Positions 10,500-13,995 of a stretch of 64,000 bases of DNA are shown one piece after another. A model generated the notes under the pieces. It saw nothing but the letters and a program-made list of their open reading frames with translations. It searched no databases and was not told where the DNA came from. Source of the stretch: an uncultured bacterium (lineage in GTDB: Bacteria; Fidelibacterota; Marinisomatia; Marinisomatales; Marinisomataceae); NCBI GenBank assembly GCA_943841495.1, contig CALSYL010000001.1, positions 62,001 through 126,000 of the forward strand, read 5' to 3'. Each line of letters opens with the position of its first letter. Within the stretch, counting starts at the first letter, position 1. The translations under genes and the position numbers were made by a program.

Positions 10500-11110
10500 T
10501 TTATCTTCTTTGGGCTCTTCTTCAGCTGGTACTTCTTCTACAGGAGCTTCTTCAGCATCGAGCTTCTTCAGCTGGTGCTTCTTCTACAGGAGCTTCTTCA
10601 GCATGGCTGCTTCTTCTACAGGAGCTTCTTCAGCTGGTGCTTCTTCTACAGGAGCTTCTTCAGCTGGAGCTTCTTCAGCATCTGCAGCTTTTTCAGCTGG
10701 TGCTTCTTCTACAGGAGCTTCTTCAGCTTGCTTCTTCAGCTGGTGCTTCTTCTACAGGAGCTTCTTCAGCAACTTTCTCTGCAGCTTTTTCAGCTGGTGC
10801 TTCTTCTACAGGAGCTTCTTCAGCTGGTGCTTCTTCTACAGGAGCTTCTTCAGCTGGAGCTTCTTCAGCAACTTTCTCTGCAGCTTTTTCAGCTGGTGCT
10901 TCTTCTACAGGAGCTTCTTCAGCTGGTGCTTCTTCTACAGGAGCTTCTTCAGCAACTTTCTCTGCAGCTTTTTCAGCTGGTGCTTCTTCTACAGGAGCTT
11001 CTTCAGCTGGAGCTTCTTCACCTTCTCTGCAGCTTTTTCAGCTGGTGCTTCTTCTACAGGAGCTTCTTCAGCTGGAGCTTCTTCAGCAACTTTCTCTGCA
11101 GCTTTTTCAG
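10500..11110. repeat. Tandem 30-bp-unit repeat array forming the rpsP tail
   Basis: 12 copies of a cttcttctacaggagcttcttcagc-like core, with interspersed aactttctctgcagctttttcagc segments. Confidence 0.93.
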
Positions 11111-11492
11111 CTTGTGCTTTTTCTTTTTTGACTTGAATTGCCTTAATTCTGTCTTGGATTACTTTATCTCTATCTTTTTTCCAATCGGCAACAGCTTTTT
11201 CAATATCTTTATCTGACATTCCTTGACCCATTAAATGCCATTTAAGAGCAAGTCCAGATCTTTTCATTAATTTATTTACAGGGTCAGTAACTTGAGCACC
11301 TAATTTCAGCCACTCAATTATTCTATCTTCCTTAAGGTTATAATTCGATTCTTTATTTTTTTCAAGAGGATTATACCAACCTACTTGTTCAATAGCAGAT
11401 CCGTCTCTTCTTTTCCTAGAATCAATAATAATTATTCTATAAAAAGGTCTATTTCTACGACCTATTCTTTTAAGTCTTATTTTTGTTGCCAT
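10989..11492 (-). CDS. rpsP: 30S ribosomal protein S16 with acidic Ala/Glu/Pro-rich repeat tail; the tail is frame-disrupted and may originally have reached the stop at 10497-10499
   Basis: MATKIRLKRIGRRNRPFYRIIIIDSRKRRDG...GWYNPLEK core; tail EEAPAEEAPVEEAP; last residues KKLQLKKLL are out-of-frame repeat. Confidence 0.92.
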   Translation of the reverse strand: MATKIRLKRIGRRNRPFYRIIIIDSRKRRDGSAIEQVGWYNPLEKNKESNYNLKEDRIIEWLKLGAQVTDPVNKLMKRSGLALKWHLMGQGMSDKDIEKAVADWKKDRDKVIQDRIKAIQVKKEKAQAEKAAEKVAEEAPAEEAPVEEAPAEKAAEKVKKLQLKKLL

Positions 11493-11574: not shown

Positions 11575-13638
11575 TTATGAAAAATCAATAGACATCAACT
11601 TAGAAATACCTCTTTTTTCAGCAGTCACACCATAAATACAATCTGCTGACTCCATAGTAAGCTTATTATGAGTAACCATTATAAACTGCGTTGATTTGCT
11701 ATAATCTCTAATAACCTCAGTAAATTTTCTAATATTAATATCGTCAAGGGGTGCATCAATTTCGTCTAGTATGCAAAATGGACTTGGTTTATATTGATAA
11801 ATTGAAAAAAGCAATGCAATTGCTGTCAATGACTTCTCACCAGCAGAAAGCATTTTGAGAGATTTATTTCTTTTACCTGGAGGTTGAGCAAAAATATTTA
11901 TTTCAGAATTTAAAGGGTCATCTGTGTTAGATAATTCAATGCTACCATTTCCACCATTAAAGAAAACAGTAAACATTTTTTCAAAATTTTCTTTTACCTT
12001 GCTAAATGTTTCAAAAAATTGCTCCTGTGCAACTTTATCAATTTTCTTGATAGCTTCTTTAAGATTGCTTTCAGCTTCAACTAGATCTGCTTTTTGCTCT
12101 AACAAAACATTTAACCTGCTACTCTTTTCTTCATATTCATCTTTAACAGCCCAATTAATAGGTCCAATAGATTCAATACTTCTTTTAATCTTATCTACCT
12201 TATAAATCATATCAGAAATATTATAATTTTTGGGAGTTGACAGCTTTACTTCCTTGCCAAATTTCTCAATTAAATTTTGTTCAATTTGAGCTTTCTTTAT
12301 TTTAGATTCTGCTATCTTCATTTCAGCATCTTTTATTTCGTAAAAAAGGTCGTCTTTGCTAAACTTGTCAGAATCTAATTTTGCTCGAATAGACTCCATT
12401 TTAATGAATGCTTTATTTACAGCATTTTCTTTTTTCTCAAGCTCTAAATTATTTATGTTAATTTTTTTCTGAATACTTTTAATTGATTCATCCATTTTTG
12501 AAAAATCAACCTCTTTTTCTTTTTTATAGATGTCAATCTTGTCTTTATAGTCTTGTATGCTTGCTTTGAGCTTTTCATATTTTTTATCAGTTTGAATAAC
12601 ATTCTTTCCACATTCATCACACTCAGAAACAATTTTGATATAATCCTTATCAAATTGATTAAGCTGGTTAATTTTTAATTGCAATTCATCCTCAAGTAAG
12701 CCTACTCCTTTTGAAGACTCTTTATTTTTAAGCTGAATTTCAGCTAATAATTCTTCTGTCAACTTATCTACTTTACTTTTCATTTTAGAAAGTGAATCTT
12801 TTTCATTTAAATAATTTTCTCTTGCATTATCAAATTCAATACTTTCAACTTTTTTCTTGGATGTATTTTTTTTCAAAAGTTTATTTTTTTCTTTAAGCAT
12901 TTCTTCAAGCGGGACAATAATTTCTTTTAGCTCTACAATTCTTGCAGAAGATAAATTGATTTCAAGATTTTTTAATTCATCAGTTAGCTTTTCATGTCTT
13001 TTAAATCTTTTTAACTGAAGCTCTAAAGCTTTAACTTGAAATTGAATTTCTACAACAATATCATCAATTCTTTCTAAATCTCTTGAATTGAGGTCAAATT
13101 TTTTCAATGCTGATTTTCTCTTAGCTTTGTATTTATTTACTCCAGCTGCCTCTTCAAACATTTGTCTTCTACTATCATCTTTATCTGACAAAATTTGTTC
13201 AATCATGTTTAACTCAATAACAGAATAGGCATCTGATGTTAAGCCAGTATCGACAAATAGATTTGAAATATCTTTTAATCGACAATTGTTTCTATTAATA
13301 AAATATTCGCTTTCCCCTGATCTATAAAGTCTTCTACCAATTTCAACCTCTTCATACTCGACAGGAAGCAGGCCTTTATTATTTTCAATTGTTAGAAATA
13401 CTTCGCACAGACCAAGCGGTTTTACATTTGAGGCTCCATTAAAAATAACATCTTCCATTTTTGAACTTCTTAACCTAGATGTTTTTTGTTCTCCTAAAAC
13501 CCATCGGATTGCATCTACTATATTGGTTTTACCGCAACCATTTGGTCCAACTATTCCAGTGATGCCACTGTCAAATAAAACTGTTTCTTTTTTTGCAAAA
13601 GATTTGAAACCAAATAATTCTAATTTAGAAATATGCAT
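11575..13638 (-). CDS. smc: SMC-family chromosome segregation ATPase, short form without a hinge and with a central CxxC
   Basis: GPNGCGKTNIVDAIRWVLGEQ, EEAAGVNKYKAKRK, LSAGEKSLTAIALLFSIYQ, PFCILDEIDAPLDD; 687 aa; CDEC at residues 340-343. Confidence 0.9.
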   Translation of the reverse strand: MHISKLELFGFKSFAKKETVLFDSGITGIVGPNGCGKTNIVDAIRWVLGEQKTSRLRSSKMEDVIFNGASNVKPLGLCEVFLTIENNKGLLPVEYEEVEIGRRLYRSGESEYFINRNNCRLKDISNLFVDTGLTSDAYSVIELNMIEQILSDKDDSRRQMFEEAAGVNKYKAKRKSALKKFDLNSRDLERIDDIVVEIQFQVKALELQLKRFKRHEKLTDELKNLEINLSSARIVELKEIIVPLEEMLKEKNKLLKKNTSKKKVESIEFDNARENYLNEKDSLSKMKSKVDKLTEELLAEIQLKNKESSKGVGLLEDELQLKINQLNQFDKDYIKIVSECDECGKNVIQTDKKYEKLKASIQDYKDKIDIYKKEKEVDFSKMDESIKSIQKKININNLELEKKENAVNKAFIKMESIRAKLDSDKFSKDDLFYEIKDAEMKIAESKIKKAQIEQNLIEKFGKEVKLSTPKNYNISDMIYKVDKIKRSIESIGPINWAVKDEYEEKSSRLNVLLEQKADLVEAESNLKEAIKKIDKVAQEQFFETFSKVKENFEKMFTVFFNGGNGSIELSNTDDPLNSEINIFAQPPGKRNKSLKMLSAGEKSLTAIALLFSIYQYKPSPFCILDEIDAPLDDINIRKFTEVIRDYSKSTQFIMVTHNKLTMESADCIYGVTAEKRGISKLMSIDFS

Positions 13639-13641
13639 AAT

Positions 13642-13995
13642 TTATCCTGGAGGCCAATTTAATAATCTTCCACCAATTAAATGCAAATGAATATGATAAA
13701 CAGTTTGCCCTCCATCATTATTGCAATTGAAAATTGTTCTATAGCCTGATTCGTCAATATTTAATTTTTTTGCCATTTCCTTAGCAACTTGAAATAATTT
13801 TCCTATTAAATTAGTATCATCATCAGTTAAATCATTTAATGTTTCAATTCTTTTTTTTGGAATGATAAGTAGATGAATAGGGGCAGTTGGATTTATATCG
13901 TCTATAACAATTACATCCTGATCTTCAAAATGAATATTAGCAGGAATTTCTCTTAAAATAATTTTTTCAAAAATAGTTTTATTCATTATTGGCAA
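13642..13995 (-). CDS. HIT family (HinT-like) protein
   Basis: IFEKIILREIPANI...VYHIHLHLIGGRLLNWPPG (HxHxH). Confidence 0.93.
   Translation of the reverse strand: MPIMNKTIFEKIILREIPANIHFEDQDVIVIDDINPTAPIHLLIIPKKRIETLNDLTDDDTNLIGKLFQVAKEMAKKLNIDESGYRTIFNCNNDGGQTVYHIHLHLIGGRLLNWPPG

Follow-up and report, generated by a model that had tools for sequence, protein, structure and literature searches.

A hinge-less SMC protein with an apical CxxC motif in a genus of Marinimicrobia

The hinge is usually regarded as a feature of all SMC proteins. Engineered complexes point to a more modest role, either that of a mere clamp or that of an obstacle gate dispensable for extrusion. The clamp role is illustrated by Smc(Zh) from Bacillus subtilis, in which the hinge was exchanged in 2017 for the zinc hook of Pyrococcus furiosus Rad50, and which supports normal growth (PMC5344682). 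The gate role is illustrated by the core of the Wadjet protein JetC, described in 2025, which lacks residues 348-686 and retains cleavage only while a disulfide closes the ring; this cleavage has been read by its authors as loop extrusion, and the core loses obstacle bypass (PMC12647877). Natural hinge-less SMCs were published in 2025 for marine Actinobacteria, explicitly without a CxxC motif (PMC12153180). Proteins holding a hook are also known in the archaeal ASRPs, which form a separate family (PMC9389158).

The SMC described here adds a CxxC-bearing variant to the hinge-less proteins already published. It belongs to a member of the Marinimicrobia (SAR406, Neomarinimicrobiota) with a genome of 0.96 Mb, 95% complete, whose named relatives are metagenome and single-cell genomes of Candidatus Marinimicrobia, a group of oceanic bacteria with small genomes, in which parallel streamlining is known (PMC6143742). 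In the literature searched, a limited collection, hinge-less SMCs with an apical CxxC or with varying apex types are undescribed.

The short smc gene, its locus and its partners

The gene lies in the window (the whole stretch of 64,000 nucleotides that was analysed) at 11575-13638 on the minus strand, which also encodes all features given below, and consists of an intact, uninterrupted reading frame of 687 aa. A first-pass annotation had recognised this frame, without stating its strand, and the SMC head motifs that it quoted are confirmed: the Walker A motif GPNGCGKT (residues 31-38; 13525-13548), the ABC signature LSAGEKS (residues 597-603; 11830-11850) and, at residue 621, where FCILDEIDAPLDD starts, the Walker B motif FCILDE (residues 621-626; 11761-11778). 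The N-terminal half-head (residues 1-165; 13144-13638) was delimited by alignment with B. subtilis Smc, which is ungapped over residues 1-212 of both proteins, and 104 of its 165 columns are invariant in the genus. For the C-terminal half-head (residues 526-687; 11578-12063), the match to the corresponding half-head of B. subtilis Smc begins at residue 484 and runs to 685.

Between the heads, the N-terminal arm (residues 166-338, about 173 aa; 12625-13143; predicted helices 168-256 and 261-339) and the C-terminal arm (residues 346-525; 12064-12603; predicted helices 344-374, 379-422, 428-460, 474-491 and 498-559) meet at an apex module (residues 327-358; 12565-12660), defined by the conservation of its flanks FDxDYIKIVS and VIxTDKKYxxLK. 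At its tip, followed by GK, is the CxxC motif CDEC (12610-12621), whose cysteines C340 and C343 map to the fold-back point, as had been claimed. The shortness of the arms is supported as well, at about 170 residues by the present count. A CxxC within five residues of the centre arises in 0.09% of random placements of seven Cys over 687 positions; the remaining five Cys are all located in the heads. An AlphaFold2 model of the monomer (mean pLDDT 67, pTM 0.44; apex 53-56) ends one helix at residue 339 and begins the next at 344, so that the predicted break falls at the CxxC, in a region of low local confidence. A fold search with this model matched SMC heads, as expected, and was uninformative for the apex.

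The initial identification of the protein as a true SMC that lacks the hinge has held. In Pfam, it matches SMC_N (213 bits), with no match to SMC_hinge (PF06470); the zinc hook model (Rad50_zn_hook, PF04423) does not match either. The NCBIfam model SMC_prok_B (TIGR02168) gives 713.3 bits in two stretches, one of them covering residues 3-297, against a cut-off of 567.35 bits, a score that makes a MukB or MksB identity unlikely. A Rad50/SbcC identity was rejected with Rad50 models below 50 bits, and an ASRP identity with 69.7 bits against a cut-off of 300. The protein is thus an SMC by descent, and not a canonical one, because PF06470 is absent both from it and from all 24 genomes of the genus.

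The hinge-less copy is the only smc in the genome, and a search for a second, full-length one found none. A paralogue standing beside a full-length gene was rejected, since SMC_N otherwise matches only ABC transporters and one RecF-like frame of 344 aa, to which the family search gave no name. The gene order folK-dnk-omp-rsmE-hinT-smc, represented in the window by an HIT-family (HinT-like) gene directly upstream (13642-13995), is common to the genus and to most of the checked relatives with a full-length smc. As the upstream order matches that of full-length smc loci, the short gene is an ortholog that was changed in place.

The first-pass annotation noted that neither ScpA nor ScpB is encoded in the window, and nothing contradicts this. 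The lack of SMC partners that it implied is wrong for the genome, where ScpA and ScpB are encoded side by side on another contig (G000:C3:122686-123333 and 123366-123833), so that a system missing ScpAB was rejected. ParB is found in 22 of the 24 genomes of the genus, this one included, and the window genome contains one parS-like site (TGTTTCACGTGAAACG, 15 of 16 positions matching). The machinery around this SMC is therefore standard, and the presence of ScpA, ScpB, ParB and the parS-like site elsewhere in the genome points to a hinge-less Smc-ScpAB condensin. The genome search extended to sbcCD found no SbcC (TIGR00618) above the cut-off in any of the 24 genomes.

A separate observation concerns the neighbouring region 10510-11492, in which rpsP (10989-11492, minus strand) encodes a bS16 protein with a long acidic tail of Glu-Glu-Ala-Pro repeats. 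The length of this tail varies throughout the genus, with frames of 145-266 aa. The tail in the window is probably frameshifted or misassembled, since the 15/99-base tandem array underlying it continues past the stop codon in shifted frames.

Distribution, selection and arm length

An smc gene was detected in 23 of the 24 genomes of the genus, and all 23 copies lack the hinge, so that relatives with equally short SMCs, which the first-pass annotation had pointed to as a check, do exist. Most of these genes are intact frames of 687-709 aa, while a few are interrupted or run off the end of a contig. PF06470 is found in none of the 24 genomes versus 95 of the 106 other genomes of the order, where full-length SMCs with a hinge have about 1,170-1,200 aa. 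In a tree built from the heads, the genus is placed within its own order, among the SMCs of Marinimicrobia.

For the genus smc, pairwise dN/dS lies at about 0.01-0.24 for the heads and the arms and rises to as much as 0.39 in the apex when compared within one apex type. The middle of the N-terminal arm is the least conserved region outside the Cys motif. These low ratios indicate that the protein is functional and no relic, and that it is kept under strong purifying selection. An internal deletion of a full-length gene or an assembly artefact, which had been named as what could undo the claim, is rejected by these ratios and by the recurrence of the short form in 23 genomes, obtained both as MAGs and from single cells.

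Counted from a head boundary at residue 165, which is our own definition, to the apex, the arms measure about 173-178 aa in the window SMC, about 263-274 aa in a second hinge-less lineage (see below) and about 340 aa in full-length proteins. The deletion appears to have been roughly symmetric about the hinge, because the BLAST alignments are free of net insertions or deletions as far as residue 295 and again beyond residue 372. It has been reported that natural SMC arm lengths fall into modes of 163, 238, 341, 423 and 515 aa, those of 163 and 423 being minor, and that functional B. subtilis Smc arms measure 253-267 and 321-344 aa, with a period of ~91 aa (PMC5344682). The two natural hinge-less cases are compatible with this arm-length rule, an agreement that is only suggestive because the boundary from which the arms were counted is of our own making.

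Apex types and a second hinge-less lineage

The two flanks of the apex (residues 327-338 and 346-358) match the ATPase heads in conservation. Conservation of the flank at 327-338 is above that of every other arm window, and that of the flank at 346-357 is reached by only 3% of arm windows. What lies between them differs among the 22 genus sequences compared: seven hold two CxxC motifs (C-x2-C-x9-C-x2-C), six, including that of the window, hold a single CxxC, and nine hold about 20 residues with no Cys. Non-conservation of the two cysteines among close relatives, which the first-pass annotation had named as a refutation, is thus partly borne out, by these nine sequences; each motif Cys is retained throughout the species with one or two CxxC. 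Neither a hidden hinge nor a zinc hook was detected with Pfam, including searches with isolated apex peptides, which returned only sub-threshold zinc-ribbon matches, and the AlphaFold model of the form with two CxxC gives an apex structure without confidence.

The apex with two CxxC is probably ancestral, and it is found in divergent basal members of the genus. Apex types require five changes on an smc tree built without the apex and six on one built from five genes of the neighbourhood, where shuffled labels require a mean of ten. Between close relatives, they change more often than simple descent predicts, as seen in L021 (genome G011) and in L010-L012. Outside the apex, the G011 gene has mostly 79-92% DNA identity to relatives with two CxxC, but only 51% within it, where it resembles the Cys-free apices of another clade (79-80% DNA identity). 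Recent gene conversion of this apex is unsupported, as 79-80% is also the identity of much of the remaining gene between the clades. Both a short-tract exchange from an unsampled donor and an old shared polymorphism fit; since the identity of the cassette only matches that of the rest of the gene, the event would be either old or derived from such a donor. A broader idea, which we put forward tentatively and consider rather improbable, is that the apex is an exchangeable cassette (a ribbon with two CxxC, a hook with one or a Cys-free loop) that is exchanged whole between species and leaves everything else in the gene, the flanks included, in place, so that the chemistry of dimerisation would be polymorphic and its variability kept by selection.

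A scan of named genomes revealed another hinge-less SMC (L101) in a different order, with 867 aa and a CxxC at residue 428. A sister species also carries a hinge-less SMC, and the CxxC is central in both. The apex has 81% identity between the two species versus 60-64% in the neighbouring arms. The heads of L101 are placed inside its own family (support 98/95), where the other members that possess smc encode a full-length protein. A common origin of both hinge-less lineages is disfavoured (joint clade, p-AU 0.03; both branches are long), and the second lineage appears to have lost its hinge independently. Of its two genomes, one encodes ScpA; the one in which ScpA was not found is 80% complete.

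In the family of this second lineage (f16), several genera (genomes G159-G163, G165, G166, G168, G172 and G173) have neither smc nor ScpA; completeness is 87-93% for some of these genomes. Among them, G173 is a third member of the second lineage's own genus and is 92% complete. Complete loss of smc therefore also occurs in the phylum. One genome of a genus otherwise without smc contains a partial SMC match of 1,002 aa (G164:C2:20934-23924) and no ScpA; this match may have come in as contamination during binning, or be a remnant.

Proposed mechanism and comparison with known systems

The reading that we favour, with a probability of roughly 60%, is that the window SMC is a chromosomal condensin with a minimal apical dimerisation module, clamped by zinc in some species. 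According to this model, the hinge was lost from the lineage together with the outer half of each arm, so that the heads, the neck and the proximal arms remain. The SMC would work with ScpA and ScpB and would probably be loaded by ParB at parS. The small apex module, with its flanks conserved across the genus, would hold together the tips of two short rods. In the window species, each monomer would contribute one CxxC, and the two could clamp one Zn2+ between them as in the Rad50 hook, while in sister species the tip may be a zinc-ribbon-like element with four Cys or a Cys-free loop. With two CxxC, a single monomer could complete its own zinc site; with a Cys-free apex, the flanks would have to keep the two monomers together. 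The ring apparently needs to be closed. The complex would keep ATP-driven capture of DNA segments or loop extrusion, the core function of SMCs, and the passage of obstacles through the hinge would be lost. Put most simply, this would be a naturally occurring core-only condensin with alternative ways of making the clamp at its tip.

The proposal of the first-pass annotation that a zinc-hook-type site replaced the hinge stands in part. The apex with CxxC followed by Gly is present, and the central CxxC of the second, apparently independent hinge-less SMC lends support to a hook-type motif. Nevertheless, no general rule emerges: judging from the nine sequences without apex Cys, the zinc hook cannot be the universal replacement of the hinge in the genus, nor can zinc be generally required, and a Cys-independent apex element must serve in those species. 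In the strongest alternative, doubtful but to be taken seriously, the complex has the same function, and its monomers meet in every species through the flanks of a Cys-independent mini-hinge, zinc knuckles being an optional structural or redox decoration. The flanks do stay invariant, or almost so, irrespective of what is inserted between them, the Cys-free apices are also under constraint (dN/dS 0.05-0.39), and the published actinobacterial SMCs do without CxxC (PMC12153180); however, CxxC recurs at the centre of the second lineage, within a conserved apex, and every motif Cys is kept in the species that have one or two of these motifs.

Two further explanations fare far worse. That the SMC is decaying towards loss, which a chromosome as small as about 1 Mb might tolerate, would accord with the absence of smc and ScpA from genera related to the second lineage, G173 included, but it is very improbable in view of the strong purifying selection in every region, the intact ATPase motifs and the retention of the gene in 23 of the 24 genomes, with ScpAB and ParB. 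Least credible of all is a repair protein of Rad50/SbcC or ASRP type whose CxxC would descend from an ancestral hook, a reading for which short arms, no hinge, a central CxxC and a genome without SbcC could be invoked, against profile scores that favour SMC_prok_B over the ASRP and Rad50 models, the smc gene order of the locus and the nesting of the protein among Marinimicrobia SMCs in the head tree.

Two or more losses of the hinge have apparently occurred within this single phylum, and the window genus has kept ScpAB and ParB, so that three questions become testable with natural proteins: what a minimal extruding SMC consists of, what the loss of the hinge gate costs and whether the ~90-residue arm-length rule holds.

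Among the known systems, the Rad50/SbcC zinc hook (PMC6969161) and archaeal ASRP/coalescin (PMC9389158) share with the window SMC a CxxC at the apex of a coiled coil, but they are not orthologous to it, their models score far below the cut-offs, and the genus has no SbcC. The Wadjet JetC core resembles it in that the region from elbow to hinge (348-686) is absent and cysteines join the rods near residue 346, the window SMC being cut after 339; unlike it, the JetC core is engineered, belongs to a defence SMC with a nuclease subunit, and is joined by a disulfide instead of a possible zinc site. Smc(Zh) likewise has the heads and arms of an SMC and an apical CxxC, a hook that dimerises it and may do the same in the window SMC, and it depends on arm length, but it is artificial, whereas the window SMC is natural, with arms of about 173 aa, near the minor natural mode of 163. 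The marine actinobacterial SMC is alike in its natural loss of the hinge, in abundant marine bacteria and with no full-length copy alongside. It comes from a different phylum and is set apart by its published description, as the window SMC has a CxxC and its heads group with Marinimicrobia (in a tree built without actinobacterial sequences); that description mentions neither alternative apex types nor a second origin, both found here, the latter as the more probable history. The closest system is the Smc-ScpAB condensin of B. subtilis, with which the window SMC shares an orthologous gene in the same position, both ATPase half-heads, ScpA, ScpB, ParB and a parS-like site, and from which it differs in lacking the hinge, replaced in the genus by an apex module of 10-30 residues, and in having arms of about 173 instead of about 340 aa.
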